54,746 nt of DNA from an uncultured Candidatus Peregrinibacteria bacterium (GTDB lineage: Bacteria > Patescibacteriota > Gracilibacteria > UBA1369). The translations under genes were made by a program, and so were the position numbers. The stretch spans positions 1 to 54,746 of the forward strand of contig CALMAI010000008.1 of NCBI GenBank assembly GCA_937858825.1. Reading direction: 5' to 3'. The notes beneath the pieces were generated by a model, which saw only the letters and a program-made list of their open reading frames with translations, had not been told where the DNA came from and did no database searches. This document shows positions 44,879 to 54,180 of this stretch, one piece after another. Every line of letters starts with the position of its first letter. The first letter of the stretch is position 1.

Positions 44879-47800
44879 ATGAGCGACGGAAAAAACAAAG
44901 ATCAAAAAGAAAAACTAGAAGGCCAGACAACTTTTGAAGAAACTGCCAATAAAGAAATACGTGAAAAAGTAGTAGCACGAGAGAAAAAAGAGGAACAGGT
45001 TCAGCAGGAAAGCGTTCAAAAGCGTACCGGATCCAGACTGGAAATGATGGGGATGACACTCTACTCCCCTGACAAACAAACAGCTTCGGAGGTTGAAGCA
45101 ATTGACACCAACTCTGAAAGTGACGAGGAGATTCAATCCTCACTGGAACTTCTTGGAACCATTTCCATCAGCATTTTGGCAAAAATGTTTGAAGGCGGGA
45201 TCGACAAAAACTCCGTCGACTCTTTAGCCGAATTCAAGCAAGTCCTCAACAAAATCAACAAAGAGAGTAAATATAAGAAGCTACGTGAAAAAATCAGTAA
45301 CGTCAGCGAAAGATCAACATTTCGCAAACTTCAGGAAATCCTCAATAAGCCCAATTCCAAAATCTACAAAGAACTGGAAAAACATTGGAATGAATACATA
45401 AAGAAAAGTAAAAATGTTATTAATGATGCCAAAAAAGGTTCACTTGCAGACGTCTGGAAAAAAGTAAGGGACAATCCAGGGAAAGTTGTTTTTGCTGTAG
45501 CTGGTGCTTTTGCACTTCATGGGCTTTACAAAGCCTTTATGGATGAAGAAAAATCCAGCACATCAGGAGAAAAAGAGTGGCACAAAAAAATCTTCAATAA
45601 AAGCACCGGAATGGCGCTCGGACTTATGGCTTTGGGAGCAATTCTGGATTCCGATAAAATTATGGCTTTTGCCAAAGAGTATTTAACAGGCGACGCCAAA
45701 GAAAATGCAATTCGCGCTGCAGAAAACGCAAAACAAGCTGCTGTTGACGCCCTTAACAAGGATATAAATTTTGATGAAAAGAAAAATCATCTCGCCAAAC
45801 TTCTTGGAAAAGATTCAACCGTTCTTGAAGGAGTCAGCCTTGCAACAATTCTTGCCGACCTGGATATACAGCCTGAAAAAACCGCCCACACCGAACCTTT
45901 TAAAGGTGCCGGAGGCGCCGCCAAACTCATGAAAAAATGGCTCAAGAAAAAAGGAAAACTCAGTCCAACCATTGAAAAAATTTTAGATAAGTTTATTGGG
46001 GAGGATAAGGAACCTATTCCACCTTTCAGCGAATCAACCAAAAAAGAGTCTGAAAAAATATCTCCTTCAGAAGTTATCAAAGAAGAAGTAGCTGAAAAAC
46101 AACTCCGCTATGACATTATTTCAAAATCTCTCATTGGACTCTATTGCCTGCAAAGCAAAGAAATGAAAGAGCTGAAAGACGAGATTACAGCCGCTTTCGA
46201 ATTCCTTCATGATGTAAAAATAGGGACTGTTGTTAACGCCTACGAATCTGCAGCAAACAAAAAAACTGTTTCATTTGAATCACTTGGGATTGATGAAAAC
46301 CCAGATACAAATCCAGAAGCCCTTTACCATGCTTGCGCGATCATAACAAAAACATTTAATCAAGCTGAAGGACTTTTTAAAAGCAAGATAGGAAAAGAGC
46401 AATCCCTGGAGGAGCTTTTCAACACTATTGGGAATGACCCAGCTATTGAACTGGCTCATGGAGTACAAAATTCAATCGAAAACAGACTGAAAGCCCTTAA
46501 GATAACCTCATTTGCAGATCTTCAGGCCAGTGTCGAGAAAATCTTTGAAGATGACACCATCAATCAACTCTTTGAACAGAATAAGGAAAAATTTCTAGAA
46601 CACGTGTCAAACAAGTACAATTTAGAGATAAACGACCTCGACAAAAAAGAAAAAGCAGACTTTCTTTTTATTGTATGGAGTCTCTATGCCAATAGCTATT
46701 CGCTTGATCAATCTTCAGAAACAGTAGAAAAGATTGCATCCAACCGCTCAGCAAATGAAAAGGTTATCCAACTAACAAAAAAACTAACAGAAGCTATTAA
46801 AAATGATGTCCTCGGTTCAAATGGACTCTTGCAAAAATCCATTGATCGTTATGACATTAAGCGCCCAAATAATGAAAAATACGATCAAATTCTACAGAAA
46901 AATTTAAAACCCGATGTCCTCTATTTCAAAGATGGATTTCAAATGGCACTTCTGGCAGATGGAATCCAGTTCGACAAGCCAGCGGAGAAAGAGAGCATTG
47001 GCCAAGCAAAAGATGTAACGATGATCTATTTGATGCTTCGGATATTGAAGGATCGAAAACCAAAGGCCTACCCACTTTATGCCGCAAACATTGCGTACAT
47101 TGCCGGAAGCAAAGACTTGGATTTGAATATTAATCTTCAAGCAATCGCGCCATATTTTGAAAAACTCTTCGGCCAGGCTTTGAAAGCATCCCTGAGCCAC
47201 CTGGAAGATGCTGATAATTTTATGATGGGATTAGAAAATCTCAATTCTGATCCTGAAAAAATCAAAAAAATTGCTGAACGTGATATAGATGTATTCCTCC
47301 TTAATACGATTGAAACGGGCGTGGCAGGTGGATATGAAATACCTCGTGACCTGACCATGGTTCTTGCCGGTAAATTTCCAGAAGCATTTGACCAAGAAAC
47401 CGATGCAGAACAGATCATGCGCATGATCATAACTCTTGGCGGAAACATCACTTATCCGGCTGTATTGTCACAAGGTGCAGGACTCGTCTATCTCGGCGGG
47501 AAATACTTCTTTATTCGGCCAATTGGAGCAGGCTGGGACTCATTAAAAGCCTTAGCAACGGAAGGTCCGGGAACAGCAGCTAAAACATATGTTATTGGTA
47601 CAGCTCCCTTTGTAACTATTGGCGCCGTTGGTGGACTATTGAAATCTACAGCTCGCCACGGAAGGGTCCTGAGTATGGCTCTTGGCGGCCTTAAAGGACT
47701 TGGAGCACCTGTCACCTACCCTATGGCCGGAATTCGTCACATTGTTGGAGCTTCAGAAACTGCCAAAAATCTGAGTCGGGGAAGTAAATACGTTTGGAAT

Positions 47801-50800
47801 GTTGCAAAAGGCAGACAAGCTTCAAATCTTGATATGGCAACCGAGCTCTACCTACATTACAACAAACTCACTCCTGACTACAAAGCCGTAAATATTTTTG
47901 AAAAAGGAAAACAGCTTCTTAAAAGTCCTCTCCAGGAAACCAGGCGTCGACTCTATTTCGACATATACAACAAGGGACGGCTTCGATGGGGGGAACTCTT
48001 CATTAAAAACTACAATGAATTTTGGGGAATTGATCCATTAAATCCATCTAGTTCAAAGGGAGTAACGCTCAAACCACTGAGAAATATTGATTTGGATCTT
48101 GCTGGTCGCAATGAACTCCTGACAAAAGTCGAACGAATGCAGGAAGTTATAGAGAGGATGAAAAAAATTGAAAAGCTTGATTCAATGTCAGAAGCAAAAT
48201 TCTGGAAAGAGATGGAAACAATTTTAGAAGGTCCGGAACTGAGAGCTTTACAGGCCAAAGCAGGATCAAACTTTGAGAAATTTCAAAAATCACTCTCAGC
48301 AAGTCTACAAGAAAGCTCAAAGAACGCTTCTAAAGTTTCAAAACTAAGAGGTTACCTGGGTGACAAATGGAAACAAGCCAGTGTTACTGAACGTTTCAAG
48401 AAATGGAATGAAGGAAGAGAGACCTCTAAATCAACAGATCTTCCCGAAAAGAAAACCAACCTCGAAACGCCCGAAAAAGCTCCGACCAAAGCAGTCAGCG
48501 AAACCTCAGAAGTTTTACATGACGCAAAAAGGAATCTGGAGACAATCCGCAAAGAGATTCGTGCTGCCGAAAGTGAGATTAAAGCTCTTAACGATGCACG
48601 CAAATCCCCTCAATTCGAAGGATGGGATGAAGCATTTGAAAAACGTCTCACCAAAGCCCGCCAGATCATTGCCGACGGTCGGGCTGCAGAAGTGAAAATG
48701 CAGGAGAGCATCAAAGCTTTTGAAAATGTTCAGGAAATAGAAGGCAAATTGGCAAAAGCCATTACTCATGCCCCGGGGGAAGTGTCAGCTCTGAACAAAG
48801 AACTCAAAGCCGCAAAAACGTTAGCCGAAGAGTCCCTTCAGGAATCGGCAGAGCTGACCAAAAATATAGGAAAAGCCGGAAAACTCGGAAGAGCACTAAA
48901 GTATGGAGGTACTGCCCTTGGTGGATTTGGTGCCGTAATAAGTTTTTATCAGGCTGGATCAGCCGGATACGAAGCTCTCACCACCGATGTTGAAGGTCGC
49001 GGAACAGTAAAAGGAGTTGAAGCAGGATTATGGACTCTCAATGCCGCCGCCGATACCGCCGCCGTTGCCGTACTACTCGGCGCGGAAGGAGCTGCAGCAA
49101 CCGGGCTCTCTGCCATAGCATTACCACTCATTCCTATAACCTATGTAGGAACCAACGCCATTGAAGCAGCCTATGAAGAAACCGTCACCGACTATGAATG
49201 GGCACAAAAAAATCCTTTCGAAGCACTCCATCATTTTTACACATCACTCAACACTATTTCTGTTGGTGACGTGTATTTGGCTGCCGCCCGCCTGGATACA
49301 AAAGAGGGGCTCGACGAACACCACAACACCATGCACAAAATCTATCGTGGCCTGGTGGCAATGCAAAAAGATCCAAGTCTCCTCAACTATATTTTGAGTA
49401 CGCCCGCATCAGACACCAAAAACAAAGAGGTCGAACGCCGCATAGAGGAAAACTATTCCGTCTATCACGAAATGTATTTCCAGAGCCTCAATCCATACGG
49501 CATTCAAAGCTACCAATCAGCACAGAAAACCGTCCTGGACGCGCAAATCTTTGACCGCATCATGACAACCCGTGACAAAGCCAAAGAAGCCGGCCAACAA
49601 TTTATCCTTGGAAATGAAGAGAGCAGCTACCACCTTAACCTCTGCGATGAAGAGTTTGAAATGGTTGGAGGAATGATGGCTCCAGAATTCAAAGAGTCAA
49701 AATTCCGACCACAAACAATTGTCGACAAATACAAGGAGGATCTTACTCACCTTCTCAAGAAAGACGAAATCCTCTGGAATAATCTTGAACGAATGGACAC
49801 TGCTTATATCCTCCGTCTTTGCGCCCAAATGCAAATTGCCGTGAACGATGAAAACCTCAAAATGGAAGATGAGCTTAAATCCATTATGAGCATTCAGTTC
49901 ATGACCCTCAAAAACTATCTTGAGGCAGGACGGGGAGTAAATTTCGAGTTCGGAATCCGCAACTCATCACTGTTTGAACCCCGCATGTCCATCGACGAAA
50001 TCCTGGAAACCATAGAAGCACTGGGAAGCGGAACTATGGAGGCTTACCTCAACTTTGAAAAACAAAACTACAATCCAACTCCATCGACCCATGCCCTCTT
50101 CCGCCTTGCTGAATTTTTGGGATACACAGGCGAACCAACCGAAATTGGCCTAAAAGAGTTTTTCTCGGAAGGATCAGCCAGCTTCCGTGGCATTTATTGG
50201 GATGGAGAGAACTGGTACATACAAGAACGTGGTCACGAATTCGACGATAAAATCGGGCCGGAGCTCAACGAAGCAATGATCAAGAAAATCATTGAAACCA
50301 TGAGAGCAAACCCAGACGACATTTTGGAACATCGCAATGACGCGATCTTCCTGGATGCTCACGACTACACCAAAGAGGTGAATCGCATGGCGCAAATTTT
50401 AGAAGATGGATTAGCCGAAGGAAAACAGCGGGGCTATAAAGAAGCTCAAGAGAATGGGGTTTCAACACCTCCAACAGGCTTTAAAGAAAAATCGGTAAAC
50501 TACGAGAAAAAAGAAAAAGACCTCGCAACTGAATACAAAGAAGCAGTTGAACATGTAAAAGAGTCCTGCAACTGGAGCAGACTTAAATATAGAGTTCTGG
50601 ACGACAACACCATTGAACTCTCTCGTACCGACTCCAACACCCGCGTGAAACTCACCCGTTCCGGAAAAGAGTGGAATGTTGGTGGATTCAAAGGCGGACT
50701 GACACTCGCGCAAGCTGTTGTTCTTGGAAACCTGAAGAACAAGGTTGAAAAAATCATCGTTGAAAACAATCATTCAGGTGGATCAGACGCGCCATTTGAA

Positions 50801-50956
50801 AACGATGGCGGCAACGTGGACTTTGATCGCAACTGGAACCCAAACGACCTTCGAATTTTAGACAAAAGTACCGGATGGCTCGGCTTCTACGACGAAGTTG
50901 GGGTCAATGTTGATGACGTGGTAGAAACACTCAACAACTGGTACAAGAGCCGCTAA
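44879..50956 (+). CDS. Giant 2025-residue protein of unknown family
   Basis: No family recognised; no signal peptide. Seen: acidic, coiled-coil-rich N-terminus (about 1-190); two short hydrophobic stretches (KVVFAVAGAFALHGLYKAF near 202 and MALGLMALGAIL near 246); a long soluble helical middle; a Gly/Ala-rich hydrophobic region (about 850-960, ITYPAVLSQGAGLVYLGG and VIGTAPFVTIGAVGGLL); a coiled coil (about 1215-1335); a second Gly/Ala-rich region (about 1340-1425, GGTALGGFGAVISFYQAG, AVAVLLGAEGAAATGLSAIA); and a C-terminal globular part with WNVGGFKGGLTLAQAVVLGN. The hydrophobic patches suggest membrane association. Neighbours: the divergent 544-residue gene and convergent elp3 (4-base overlap). 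Not obviously a phage tape-measure or polymorphic toxin, though both can look similar; no catalytic motif was found. Confidence 0.75.
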   Translation: MSDGKNKDQKEKLEGQTTFEETANKEIREKVVAREKKEEQVQQESVQKRTGSRLEMMGMTLYSPDKQTASEVEAIDTNSESDEEIQSSLELLGTISISILAKMFEGGIDKNSVDSLAEFKQVLNKINKESKYKKLREKISNVSERSTFRKLQEILNKPNSKIYKELEKHWNEYIKKSKNVINDAKKGSLADVWKKVRDNPGKVVFAVAGAFALHGLYKAFMDEEKSSTSGEKEWHKKIFNKSTGMALGLMALGAILDSDKIMAFAKEYLTGDAKENAIRAAENAKQAAVDALNKDINFDEKKNHLAKLLGKDSTVLEGVSLATILADLDIQPEKTAHTEPFKGAGGAAKLMKKWLKKKGKLSPTIEKILDKFIGEDKEPIPPFSESTKKESEKISPSEVIKEEVAEKQLRYDIISKSLIGLYCLQSKEMKELKDEITAAFEFLHDVKIGTVVNAYESAANKKTVSFESLGIDENPDTNPEALYHACAIITKTFNQAEGLFKSKIGKEQSLEELFNTIGNDPAIELAHGVQNSIENRLKALKITSFADLQASVEKIFEDDTINQLFEQNKEKFLEHVSNKYNLEINDLDKKEKADFLFIVWSLYANSYSLDQSSETVEKIASNRSANEKVIQLTKKLTEAIKNDVLGSNGLLQKSIDRYDIKRPNNEKYDQILQKNLKPDVLYFKDGFQMALLADGIQFDKPAEKESIGQAKDVTMIYLMLRILKDRKPKAYPLYAANIAYIAGSKDLDLNINLQAIAPYFEKLFGQALKASLSHLEDADNFMMGLENLNSDPEKIKKIAERDIDVFLLNTIETGVAGGYEIPRDLTMVLAGKFPEAFDQETDAEQIMRMIITLGGNITYPAVLSQGAGLVYLGGKYFFIRPIGAGWDSLKALATEGPGTAAKTYVIGTAPFVTIGAVGGLLKSTARHGRVLSMALGGLKGLGAPVTYPMAGIRHIVGASETAKNLSRGSKYVWNVAKGRQASNLDMATELYLHYNKLTPDYKAVNIFEKGKQLLKSPLQETRRRLYFDIYNKGRLRWGELFIKNYNEFWGIDPLNPSSSKGVTLKPLRNIDLDLAGRNELLTKVERMQEVIERMKKIEKLDSMSEAKFWKEMETILEGPELRALQAKAGSNFEKFQKSLSASLQESSKNASKVSKLRGYLGDKWKQASVTERFKKWNEGRETSKSTDLPEKKTNLETPEKAPTKAVSETSEVLHDAKRNLETIRKEIRAAESEIKALNDARKSPQFEGWDEAFEKRLTKARQIIADGRAAEVKMQESIKAFENVQEIEGKLAKAITHAPGEVSALNKELKAAKTLAEESLQESAELTKNIGKAGKLGRALKYGGTALGGFGAVISFYQAGSAGYEALTTDVEGRGTVKGVEAGLWTLNAAADTAAVAVLLGAEGAAATGLSAIALPLIPITYVGTNAIEAAYEETVTDYEWAQKNPFEALHHFYTSLNTISVGDVYLAAARLDTKEGLDEHHNTMHKIYRGLVAMQKDPSLLNYILSTPASDTKNKEVERRIEENYSVYHEMYFQSLNPYGIQSYQSAQKTVLDAQIFDRIMTTRDKAKEAGQQFILGNEESSYHLNLCDEEFEMVGGMMAPEFKESKFRPQTIVDKYKEDLTHLLKKDEILWNNLERMDTAYILRLCAQMQIAVNDENLKMEDELKSIMSIQFMTLKNYLEAGRGVNFEFGIRNSSLFEPRMSIDEILETIEALGSGTMEAYLNFEKQNYNPTPSTHALFRLAEFLGYTGEPTEIGLKEFFSEGSASFRGIYWDGENWYIQERGHEFDDKIGPELNEAMIKKIIETMRANPDDILEHRNDAIFLDAHDYTKEVNRMAQILEDGLAEGKQRGYKEAQENGVSTPPTGFKEKSVNYEKKEKDLATEYKEAVEHVKESCNWSRLKYRVLDDNTIELSRTDSNTRVKLTRSGKEWNVGGFKGGLTLAQAVVLGNLKNKVEKIIVENNHSGGSDAPFENDGGNVDFDRNWNPNDLRILDKSTGWLGFYDEVGVNVDDVVETLNNWYKSR

Positions 50957-52614
50957 ATTTTTTTCACCATATAGGTTCCCTCAAGGTGATACCCCAACTT
51001 CCGGTAATATTCGCGAACGCCAATACCGCTAATGACGGCAATTTTCTTATACCCGTTCTTTCGACTGATCTCTTCTGCCTTTTGCATCATCTGCCTCCCC
51101 AAACCAATATGTTGTGACGCTCCATCCAATCCGCCATCAACCTTCACCTGCTCACCATAAGCATGAACTTCACGCACCAAAGCCGCCCCTTCTAATTCCG
51201 GAATAAAATGCTTCTTCCCCTGTAAACTATAAGAACTAAACCGCAGCCGCAAAAGCGAACACAGCTTATCCCGCTTCACATCATCAAAAGAGATAAAGAA
51301 CTCCTGCCCTTCAGAAGCCTCAAACTCCTTCACCCGCATCTCCACCTGATCCAAATACACCTTTTCCTCTTTCACCTGTCGACATCGAATACACCGGCAT
51401 TCAAGTCCCCTCTTTTCCATTTCTTGATGGATGATTTGTCGTAAATTTGAAACCGTCGAACCACCAACAATCGAAGGTGCCGGAATATCGCGAATTAAGC
51501 GCGTAATCCGACAATATTCAGGGATCAAAGGCTTCACCTTACACATCAACTCCACCAGTTCCTCATCGGTATACGTTCGATGTTCCCCCTTCTTATATAT
51601 ACGCTCCAGCTGTGACCACGGCACAACCATGCACGGGTAAATTTTAAGCCAGTCCGGCCTGTAAGCAGGATTTTCAAACAGTTCCACCATATCTTCATAG
51701 TCGATCTCCGGATTACTACCATAAAGATTTGGCATCATATGACAGTTGATCTTATAAGCCGCATCACGAATAAGCTGGATCGCCCGCTTTGTCTCAGCAA
51801 TCCCATGTCCACGGCGGTTCATTTTCAAAATTTCATCATTCAGACTCTGAACTCCAATCTCAATCTTTGTACAACCAAGACGCCGCAGTCGCCGCAGCTC
51901 ATCCTCGGTAATATGATCCGGGCGGGTCTCCATAGAAAGACCAATACAACGATTCCCGGCCGTCTCATTAATTTTCTGAGCTTCCTCCAGTGAACGTGCC
52001 TTCTCTGCCGGAGCATTCAGCGCATTAAAAATTCCCCGCACAAAATCGGTTTGGTATCTCTTAGGATAAAACGACCAGGTTCCACCAGAAATGATCACAT
52101 CAATTTTATCCGTGAAGTGTCCTGTTTTTTGTAGACTCTGAACCCGATTTAAAGTTTGTTTATAAGCATCAAAGTCGTTCAGAATAGCCCGCATAATTGC
52201 CGGTTCATTCGAAAGATAACTCTTTGGCATTTTCGGTTCAGTCGGACAAAAAATACACTTCCCCGGACACGGAAATCCTTTGGTAATAACAGTGATATTG
52301 GCAATTCCTGAATGAGAGCGCACTCCTCTTTTCCTCAAAATTTTCCAAAAATCCCGATCCTCCTGCATCTCTCCCTTTGCAATCAAAGCCCGATATGCCG
52401 AAATTAATTCAATATTCGCAAAAGGACTCCGCCCATGCTCTGCAGCAAAACGTTTTTTCATCTTCTGGAGCTTTTTGGGAGTATCAACACCATGCTGGTA
52501 CGCCTGCACCACAAACTCCTCCGCTTGAGTCCTATCTTTGATTATTATTGATTTCACGCTACTCTTGTAAATATACTTATTATGAATGTTGCTAGCAAAA
52601 CTCTGCAAAAACAT
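50953..52614 (-). CDS. elp3: Elp3-family radical SAM/GNAT tRNA U34 carboxymethyl-modification enzyme
   Basis: Elp3 makes 5-carboxymethyl-type groups on wobble uridine using SAM and acetyl-CoA. Seen: N-terminal segment VQAYQHGVDTPKKLQKMKKR, radical SAM domain with TKGFPCPGKCIFCPTEP (Cys spacing CX3CX2C), SYLSNEPAIMRAILNDFDAY, KIDVIISGGTWSFYPKRYQ, EIGVQSLNDEILKMNRRGHG and HMMPNLYGSNPEIDY; Cys-rich ECRCIRCRQVKEEKVYLDQV; C-terminal GNAT with QHIGLGRQMMQKAEEISRKN, and AVISGIGVREYYRKLGYHLE then GTYMVKKI. 553 residues matches Elp3. Start at ATG 52614 follows the longest frame; a GTG at 52557 preceded by TATATT (52570-52575) is an alternative. Convergent with the giant gene; divergent from the Trm9-like gene. 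Confidence 0.93.
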   Translation of the reverse strand: MFLQSFASNIHNKYIYKSSVKSIIIKDRTQAEEFVVQAYQHGVDTPKKLQKMKKRFAAEHGRSPFANIELISAYRALIAKGEMQEDRDFWKILRKRGVRSHSGIANITVITKGFPCPGKCIFCPTEPKMPKSYLSNEPAIMRAILNDFDAYKQTLNRVQSLQKTGHFTDKIDVIISGGTWSFYPKRYQTDFVRGIFNALNAPAEKARSLEEAQKINETAGNRCIGLSMETRPDHITEDELRRLRRLGCTKIEIGVQSLNDEILKMNRRGHGIAETKRAIQLIRDAAYKINCHMMPNLYGSNPEIDYEDMVELFENPAYRPDWLKIYPCMVVPWSQLERIYKKGEHRTYTDEELVELMCKVKPLIPEYCRITRLIRDIPAPSIVGGSTVSNLRQIIHQEMEKRGLECRCIRCRQVKEEKVYLDQVEMRVKEFEASEGQEFFISFDDVKRDKLCSLLRLRFSSYSLQGKKHFIPELEGAALVREVHAYGEQVKVDGGLDGASQHIGLGRQMMQKAEEISRKNGYKKIAVISGIGVREYYRKLGYHLEGTYMVKKI

Positions 52615-52687
52615 TCTGCAGCTCCCTAAGGAGCGAAGCCGTTTTTAAGGAGTTTTATTGGCAACAACAGCAACATTATAGGCACCC

Positions 52688-53365
52688 ATGAGAGAAAAGA
52701 AAGCCAAAAAAGTATTAGAACACGTAAAAGCCACTTATGGCAATATTGCCGAGTCGTTTTCTTCGACCCGTCACTATATTGGTCGTGAATTTACAACGTT
52801 TCTTCCCTACCTTCAAAAAGCTAAAAACATACTCGACCTGGGCTGCGGCAATGGCCGATTTGTGCGGTTTTTGGAACAAGAAAAACTCAAAGCCCATTAT
52901 ATTGGCATGGACAACGCCAAAGAGTTTATAGAGATCTGCCAAAAAGAGTTCCCTCGTCATACATTTAAAGAAGGAGATCAACTCAACATTCCGCTATCTG
53001 ACGAAACACAGGATCTCATCCTCAACATTCGCGCATTTCATCACCTTCCATCAAAAAAACACCGGATCAATGCGTTAAAAGAGATGCATCGAGTCCTCAA
53101 CAACAAAGGAATTCTCATTATCAGTGTCTGGAATCTCTGGCAGTTGAAATATTGGAAACAGCTTGTTACAGCCATCATACGAAGTATTATTTCCTTCGGT
53201 TCCTATGCATATAATGATACATTTATACCCTGGCAAAAGCACCACAAACGCTACTATCATGCCTTTACCCAAAAAGAACTAAAAAAGATCCTCGAACAAG
53301 GAGATTTCAACATTCTCCAACAGTACAAAGTAGGCAAAGATTTCATTATTATTGCACAAAAATGA
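52688..53365 (+). CDS. Trm9/ALKBH8-like SAM-dependent tRNA methyltransferase
   Basis: Class I methyltransferase most like the Trm9/ALKBH8 family, which methylates 5-carboxymethyl-U34 to mcm5U. Seen: YGNIAESFSSTR at 17-28 (matching the Trm9-type YxxIAxxFSxTR), ILDLGCGNGRFVRFLEQE (SAM motif I, about 48-65), FHHLPSKKHRINALKEMHRV, LIISVWNLWQLKYWKQ and C-terminal RYYHAFTQKELKKILEQGDF at 188-207. All are in Trm9-like order. 225 residues is normal for the catalytic domain. The elp3 gene is divergent, with a 73-base gap. Its ATGA overlap with the following glycosyltransferase suggests co-transcription. A generic methyltransferase 11-type is the fallback. Confidence 0.82.
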   Translation: MREKKAKKVLEHVKATYGNIAESFSSTRHYIGREFTTFLPYLQKAKNILDLGCGNGRFVRFLEQEKLKAHYIGMDNAKEFIEICQKEFPRHTFKEGDQLNIPLSDETQDLILNIRAFHHLPSKKHRINALKEMHRVLNNKGILIISVWNLWQLKYWKQLVTAIIRSIISFGSYAYNDTFIPWQKHHKRYYHAFTQKELKKILEQGDFNILQQYKVGKDFIIIAQK

Positions 53366-54180
53366 GCATCAATATTCTAGGCATACCGTTTAGTTCAACC
53401 GACGAAGAATCATTGATTATAGAGGTTAATGAAACACTAAAAAGCACGGACAAAAAGCTTTTTATCGCCACTCCAAACCCAGAAATGGTTCTGGAGTCAG
53501 AAAAAAATGAAGAACTCCATAAAGTTTTAAATCAGACAGACATCAATATTCCTGATGGGACAGGGATTCTTTGGGCCGCGGACCGGCTAACCAAAGCAAA
53601 ACAGTTCAAATCCAAAACAGCCAAAATTGCAAACTGTCTTTTCACCCTCCCTCTCACAATCTTCAATGCCCGAAAGTCAAAGTACACAAAACTTCAGCGC
53701 ATCACTGGCACAGATTTCATGCAAAAAATCTGCAAGGATGCCATTCCATCTGCGCGTATCTTCTTACTTGGAGCAGCCCCGGGTATCGCGCAAAAAACCA
53801 AGAATAAACTCCAAAAAAAGTACAATTGTACCATTGTCGGAACGGATGCAGGATCAGCCCATCCCGACGAATACAATCGCATTCGCGAACTCATCAACCT
53901 CTTTAATCCAGACATTCTTTTTGTCGCGTTCGGAGCCCCAAAACAGGAAATATGGCTGGCGCGCAACCTTGAACACCTCCCAAGTGTAAAAGTTGCAATC
54001 GGTGTGGGCGGCGCCTTTGACTACATCTCCGGGCACGTCCCCCGCGCACCAGAATTCATGCGTAAAGCCGGGCTGGAGTGGCTCTACCGCCTTTTTCGAC
54101 AACCTTCACGCATTAAAAGAATCTACAACGCGTTCGTCAAATTCCCAATTCGCGTTATAAAAGAGATCACGCGGCAATAA
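53362..54180 (+). CDS. WecG/TagA/CpsF family glycosyltransferase
   Basis: GT26 family enzyme adding N-acetylmannosaminuronic acid or N-acetylmannosamine to a lipid-linked sugar in ECA, teichoic acid or other surface polymers. Seen: ILGIPFSSTDEESLI, FIATPNPEMVLESEKNEELH, INIPDGTGILWAADRLTK, RITGTDFMQKIC, FLLGAAPGIAQKTKNKLQKK, DILFVAFGAPKQEIWLARNL and GVGGAFDYISGHVPRAPEFM, RKAGLEWLYRLFRQPSRIKR, which are strong family signatures. 272 residues is normal. The start overlaps the methyltransferase stop. It fits with the LCP and GT4 genes elsewhere as part of surface glycopolymer synthesis. Confidence 0.93.
   Translation: MSINILGIPFSSTDEESLIIEVNETLKSTDKKLFIATPNPEMVLESEKNEELHKVLNQTDINIPDGTGILWAADRLTKAKQFKSKTAKIANCLFTLPLTIFNARKSKYTKLQRITGTDFMQKICKDAIPSARIFLLGAAPGIAQKTKNKLQKKYNCTIVGTDAGSAHPDEYNRIRELINLFNPDILFVAFGAPKQEIWLARNLEHLPSVKVAIGVGGAFDYISGHVPRAPEFMRKAGLEWLYRLFRQPSRIKRIYNAFVKFPIRVIKEITRQ

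Follow-up and report, generated by a model that had tools for sequence, protein, structure and literature searches.

Divergent genes for Elp3 and a Trm9-like methyltransferase in Patescibacteria: a candidate bacterial route to the wobble uridine mcm5U34

Organization of the locus

The window analysed here is the whole 54,746-nucleotide contig CALMAI010000008.1 (contig C8; assembly GCA_937858825.1) of an uncultured Candidatus Peregrinibacteria bacterium (GTDB lineage Bacteria; Patescibacteriota; Gracilibacteria; UBA1369), whose genome measures 1.3 Mb and is 96% complete. Towards the end of the window two genes stand back to back. An open reading frame on the minus strand (50953-52614) encodes an Elp3 protein of 553 residues, and one on the plus strand (52688-53365) encodes a class I methyltransferase of 225 residues; the intergenic gap between their divergent starts (52615-52687) is 73 bases long. 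The original prediction, made from the letters of this DNA, proposed that the two proteins could carry out both steps leading to 5-methoxycarbonylmethyluridine at the tRNA wobble position (mcm5U34), namely the formation of 5-carboxymethyluridine (cm5U34) and its methylation. Its description of the locus as a complete Elp3 separated by 73 bases from a divergent methyltransferase agrees with both the open reading frame coordinates and the domain searches, and the Trm9-type motifs that it quoted stand in the window translation at the residues given (YGNIAESFSSTR at 17-28, LDLGCGNGR at 49-57, RYYHAF at 188-193).

A stand-alone Elp3

The Elp3 protein consists of a radical S-adenosylmethionine (SAM) domain, a Radical_SAM_C domain and a GNAT domain (PF04055, PF16199 and PF00583), and scores 548.7 bits on TIGR01211 against a cut-off of 350. 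Its nearest relatives of solved structure are archaeal MinElp3 (6ia8/6iaz, E about 1e-123) and DmcElp3 (5l7j, E about 1e-109), together with eukaryotic Elp3. Alignment places the [4Fe-4S] motif, CPGKCIFC, at residues 116-123 (52246..52269, minus strand); its CX3CX2C spacing has one residue fewer than the CX4CX2C of archaeal MinElp3 and is constant in the relatives' Elp3 proteins examined. On the same strand, E229 (51928..51930) aligns with the tunnel or active-site residue E207 of MinElp3, and the K324-I-Y326 stretch (51637..51645) with K302 and Y304, the distance of 95 residues from E229 to K324 being that found in MinElp3. E207, K302 and Y304 are required for the activity of MinElp3, which makes cm5U alone, in vitro and without a partner (PMC13315578). 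To judge from these residues the window Elp3 looks active, and the partner-free synthesis by MinElp3 suggests that a stand-alone bacterial Elp3 could do likewise.

Family placement of the methyltransferase

Family databases give the methyltransferase generic or sub-threshold names only. By sequence comparison, the METHYLTRANSFERASE encoded at 52688-53365 is Trm9-like. A profile (A1) built from 28 relatives and searched against all PDB sequences has as its best match the Trm9 of Yarrowia (5cm2_Z, E 1.7e-24, 89.8 bits; next match 69.2 bits), and the match extends over nearly all of the domain, with the C-terminal VPW...RYYH region included. In the reciprocal direction, Yarrowia Trm9 was searched against 99 related genomes and ranked the same gene top in 83 of the 85 that gave matches, the two exceptions being genomes without the methyltransferase gene; in the window's own genome the gene is the sole match. 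Among 72,556 plasmid records, the single match to Yarrowia Trm9 is a haloarchaeal protein (WP_006068033), which is also the top-ranked match of the window protein.

A maximum-likelihood tree, made without two very long paralog branches, set the family against E. coli UbiE, UbiG, BioC, CmoA and CmoM and against paralogs of these genomes. One branch, with a support of 98/86, separates the bacterial family and both Trm9 proteins (haloarchaeal and Yarrowia) from the 19 others. The methyltransferase thus groups with Trm9, as the original prediction had read from its motifs, and not with UbiE-type or other tested families. Within this group the bacterial family is sister to the two Trm9 proteins (support 72/91) and is not nested within Trm9.

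Several other identities were considered and rejected. UbiE/MenG models score no higher than 53.1 bits, where the cut-offs are at least 158, and E. coli UbiE falls outside in the tree; the Pfam Ubie_methyltran match reaches 33 bits, above a permissive threshold of 20.1, yet is contradicted by the tree. BioC (TIGR02072) scores 59.7 against a cut-off of 184.95, and the other NCBIfam filings all fall well under their cut-offs. An AlphaFold2 model of the protein has a mean confidence (pLDDT) of 95.8. Foldseek ranks 5cm2_Z first by a narrow margin. In VIA-align its Z is 20.2, one of many class I methyltransferases at 20-23.

Active-site residues and charge

In yeast Trm9, the mutations R29A, H115A, R241A, Y243A and N271A impair tRNA affinity and turnover (PMC5372719). 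The window methyltransferase keeps four of these five residues. Conservation was counted over 109 distinct relatives, and the equivalents of R29 and H115 were set via the Yarrowia chain, in which the distance from the TR arginine to the first His of HH is likewise 86 residues (manual count). R28 (52769..52771, plus strand, as are all positions in this paragraph) corresponds to R29 and is Arg in 109/109 relatives. SAM motif I, ILDLGCGNGR, follows at residues 48-57 (52829..52858), and the H118-H119 pair lies at 53039..53044, H118 being the counterpart of H115 (His in 103/109). Two tryptophans belong to motifs common to Trm9: W148 in the VW motif (53129..53131; 109/109) and W182 in the IPW/VPW motif (53231..53233; 103/109). 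The C-terminal RYYHAF at residues 188-193 (53249..53266) contains R188, equivalent to yeast R241 (107/109), and Y190, equivalent to Y243 (91/109), which is replaced mostly by Val, Ile or Leu in 18 relatives. The position of yeast N271 is occupied by D218 (53339..53341), where 100/109 relatives have Asn.

The protein is also strongly basic, with an isoelectric point (pI) of 9.7 and a net charge of +15. Across the Trm9-like relatives the median pI is 9.6 and the net charge +14, as against 8.4 and +2 for the paralogous methyltransferases of the same genomes (p 5e-7). Such basicity fits what is expected of an RNA-binding enzyme.

Conservation of the gene pair

Two samples were used: a close set of 118 genomes (the window's own and 117 relatives) and a survey of 380 Patescibacteria genomes, in which the methyltransferase was called at E<=1e-25. 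In the close set, the methyltransferase occurs in 104 genomes and Elp3 in 108; 102 have both once weak partial matches are removed. The two genes lie within 3 kb of each other in 77 of these 102, always divergently, and within about 410 bp in 70 of the 77. In the wider survey 106 genomes carry the methyltransferase and 139 Elp3: both are present in 103, the methyltransferase alone in 3, Elp3 alone in 36, and neither in 238. Of the 103 two-gene genomes, 89 have the genes at most 3 kb apart, again without exception divergent, and these come from 44 families, of which 36 do not belong to the window's class. The divergent layout is not due to chance, since it recurs at these frequencies both among relatives and across the phylum; the adjacency noticed in the window is a conserved one.

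The genes also share their presence and absence, even where they lie on different contigs. A Fisher test gives 3e-57, a value that ignores kinship, hence the family counts alongside it. One family (f19) provides an example, with both genes adjacent in a single genome (G362) and neither in the other 14. Over 80 loci Elp3 adjoins the methyltransferase in 66, and every other neighbour occurs in at most 24, except for a glycosyltransferase gene, tagA, in 38. Carriers among the named records include Peregrinibacteria, Peribacteria, Gracilibacteria and several Parcubacteria lineages (Nealson-, Portnoy-, Komeili-, Kuenen-, Kerfeld- and Berkelbacteria).

Two observations concern individual carriers. 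A contig filed as Ignavibacteriales (L138) has both genes and clusters with sequences from Patescibacteria; it is probably misbinned or transferred. In six genomes of the window's class (G117, G097, G099, G101, G108 and G110) these genes contain many in-frame TGA codons and TGA is probably a sense codon there; all six still keep Elp3 and the Trm9-like gene.

Other wobble-uridine genes, Trm112 and tRNAs

The usual bacterial enzymes acting on C5 of the wobble uridine are missing from these genomes. MnmG gives no match in any of the 118 close-set genomes, the window's own included, and is absent from 374 of the 380 phylum genomes. No MnmE exceeds the cut-off in the 118 genomes. Matches to its model do occur in every one of them, the listed ones covering about 165-410 of 446 model positions; they are read as other GTPases because they are confined to the GTPase part and none reaches the cut-off. 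CmoA, CmoB and CmoM have no match in the window's own genome (tblastn). None of the six MnmG-bearing genomes in the survey has the pair. This mutual exclusion is suggestive only, as six of six would be expected at about 6% given that 241/380 genomes are without Elp3. Many Patescibacteria appear to be without any known C5 wobble-uridine pathway, because 238 of 380 have neither gene of the pair and MnmG is found in only six.

The 2-thiolation enzyme MnmA, on the other hand, exceeds its cut-off in 110 of the 118 close-set genomes, including that of the window. In one relative (G111, C106:939-3716) a MnmA/TrmU gene is convergent with Elp3 at a distance of about 25 bases, and the methyltransferase is located elsewhere.

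The absence of a visible Trm112-like protein, reported for the window in the original prediction, extends to the whole genome: PF03966 has no match at E<=0.01 there and exceeds its cut-off in one of the 118 close-set genomes. The same search does detect Trm112 in archaea and E. coli.

The genome (G000) contains 37 detected tRNA genes (loci L195-L281). Every purine-ending split box, namely Lys, Glu, Gln, Arg(AGR) and Leu(UUR), is served by a U34 as well as a C34 tRNA. Such a set is consistent with a U34 that decodes chiefly A-ending codons, like eukaryotic mcm5s2U (the 2-thiolated form). For Arg CGN codons the anticodons are GCG and UCG, and ACG is missing from the 37 genes.

Neighbouring genes

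Downstream of the methyltransferase lies a gene for a TagA/WecG/CpsF-family glycosyltransferase (53362..54180, plus strand), whose first 4 bases overlap the methyltransferase stop. This TagA is canonical, matching its family over the full length with the C-terminal appendage included. On the other side, a protein of 2025 residues (44879-50956, plus strand) is convergent with Elp3 and overlaps it by 4 bases.

The proposed pathway and its alternatives

The best explanation, which we hold to be probable, is that Elp3 and the Trm9-like enzyme form a route to mcm5U34 that works without Elongator or Trm112, with MnmA adding the 2-thio group, and that replaces MnmE-MnmG. Elp3 acting on its own would form cm5U34 from acetyl-CoA by SAM radical chemistry, in the tRNAs for purine-ending codons of split boxes. 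Its Trm9-like partner would hold the tRNA by its basic surface and methylate the new carboxylate with SAM, giving mcm5U34, and this step would need no Trm112. The 2-thio group would be added by MnmA, whose gene lies elsewhere in the genome, to produce mcm5s2U34 on tRNA-Lys, tRNA-Glu and tRNA-Gln. The two-gene unit would thereby substitute for the MnmE and MnmG missing in these bacteria. Support for the two-step proposal of the original prediction is comparative: it comes from the tree, the conserved adjacency and co-distribution of the genes, the absence of MnmE, MnmG and Trm112, the presence of MnmA and the retained catalytic residues. From these observations we infer which reactions the enzymes catalyse, on which tRNAs they act, that the product is a methyl ester and that no Trm112 is needed.

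Certain points weigh against this route. Identity between the window protein and the Yarrowia and haloarchaeal Trm9 proteins is about 22-27%, and the match obtained in this genome with the single Yarrowia sequence is weak (E 2.4e-6). Trm9 is sampled in the tree by one eukaryotic and one archaeal sequence only. The predicted fold is non-discriminating among class I methyltransferases and, because these all score alike, it was left out of the placement. Yeast Trm9 and human ABH8 depend on Trm112, which is absent here. The N271 position is Asp in the family to which this genome belongs. Finally, the glycosyltransferase gene has a link of its own to the methyltransferase, restricted to this class, and stays beside it where Elp3 sits elsewhere.

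This last association is the basis of an alternative that we regard as improbable, in which the enzyme methylates an envelope glycan, at a carboxyl (or other) group, as a partner of the TagA/WecG N-acetylmannosaminyltransferase, and the Elp3 adjacency is no more than inherited gene order. Besides the gene overlap and the persistence without adjacent Elp3, it is favoured by the position of tagA immediately downstream in 59 of the 101 distinct loci with enough sequence overall, and nearly always so within this class, and by three fusions of the two proteins (L106:3980-5524, L107:4001-5497 and L120:1937-3394). The gene is, moreover, single-copy in most genomes of the class and the only one in the window's genome, and its product is canonical down to the C-terminal appendage. 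However, Parcubacteria-type loci have no TagA beside the methyltransferase and keep the divergent Elp3, and the methyltransferase is accompanied by Elp3 in 103 of 106 genomes. The proteins are basic and group with Trm9 in the tree, and R28, H118, W148 and R188 are retained in loci without an adjacent Elp3. A tRNA role is therefore preferred over a glycan role, because the link to Elp3 is the broader one and copies linked to TagA still have the Trm9 residues. A further reading, which we consider very improbable, would join all three proteins in one pathway leading to a sugar-bearing or otherwise novel cm5U derivative at the wobble position in this class; TagA would then act on another substrate in addition to its lipid-linked sugar acceptor.

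The two enzymes might also act on the same tRNA and yield something other than mcm5U, for instance another ester, an amide or a U34 that is modified further. The occurrence of Elp3 without the methyltransferase in 36 phylum genomes suggests that the end product varies, and the Asp at the N271 position and the replacement of Y243 in 18 relatives point in the same direction, as does the fact that yeast makes both 5-carbamoylmethyluridine (ncm5U) and mcm5U (PMC3110198). Against this, R29, H115 and R241, which bind the substrate, hardly vary. We know of no reaction of the Trm9 family other than methylation of the cm5U carboxylate. Such a product is unlikely in our estimation. Least expected, along with the three-protein pathway, is an absence of any functional coupling, with both genes merely riding in a stable chromosomal segment: GatB and other genes do recur near the pair in some loci, but their frequencies remain far from that of Elp3 (at most 24/80 against 66/80, with only TagA between them at 38/80), and the two genes are present or absent together even across different contigs.

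Relation to known systems

The Elp3/Trm9-like route would resemble the eukaryotic system of Elongator (Elp1-6) with Trm9-Trm112 or ALKBH8-TRMT112 in its two-domain Elp3 with the key residues and in its Trm9-family active site. It differs in being bacterial and without Trm112, in relying on a stand-alone Elp3 and on MnmA for thiolation, and in being encoded by a divergent gene pair. Going by the prokaryotic literature, the other Elongator subunits are absent, and no search for them was made here. Archaeal Elp3 and Trm9 (Haloferax, Sulfolobus) provide another parallel, sharing the two-gene logic and the clustering, with the genes clustered in Sulfolobus solfataricus (PMC2584109), and with a haloarchaeal Trm9 homologue in the sister group of the bacterial family. 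The present system is, by contrast, bacterial, forms a separate branch of the Trm9 family and is paired across 44 families. Many archaea have Trm112, in some cases as a fusion with Trm9-type domains (PMC5372719), and archaeal thiolation depends on NcsA/Tuc1, not on MnmA (PMC2584109, PMC10067955).

Among bacteria, the MnmE-MnmG pathway (plus MnmC or MnmL/MnmM), which leads to 5-(carboxymethyl)aminomethyl-(2-thio)uridine, (c)mnm5(s2)U34, acts on the same base in the same functional niche and also uses MnmA for the 2-thio group. MnmE and MnmG are absent here, and the chemistry and the enzymes would be different. Dehalococcoides mccartyi has a homologous stand-alone Elp3 (5l7j); published work treats Elp3 alone, and no Trm9-type partner for it is reported in the literature searched.

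Current accounts consider mcm5U typical of Eukarya and suspect mcm5(s2)U34 in some archaea (PMC2584109), contrast bacterial (c)mnm5(s2)U34 with eukaryotic mcm5s2U (PMC5400242), and, in a 2017 review, describe the Trm112-dependent methyltransferases as having no detectable homologues in bacteria (PMC5372719). Literature searches, which covered part of the literature, returned no description of a bacterial Elp3/Trm9-like pair. The pair is best viewed as a putative bacterial, Trm112-less variant of the known Elp3/Trm9 pathway. The methyltransferase is named Trm9-like and not Trm9 because Trm112, the partner of the studied eukaryotic members, was looked for and not found.

With the usual bacterial machinery missing and an archaeal/eukaryotic-like gene pair in its place, many small-genome bacteria of the candidate phyla radiation probably make a modification thought to be absent from bacteria. 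If so, a large bacterial phylum would have swapped its wobble pathway for an archaeal/eukaryotic one. It would also offer a natural Trm9-type enzyme that has no need of Trm112, within a two-gene system that could be rebuilt in E. coli, and would bear on the evolution of the Elongator pathway.

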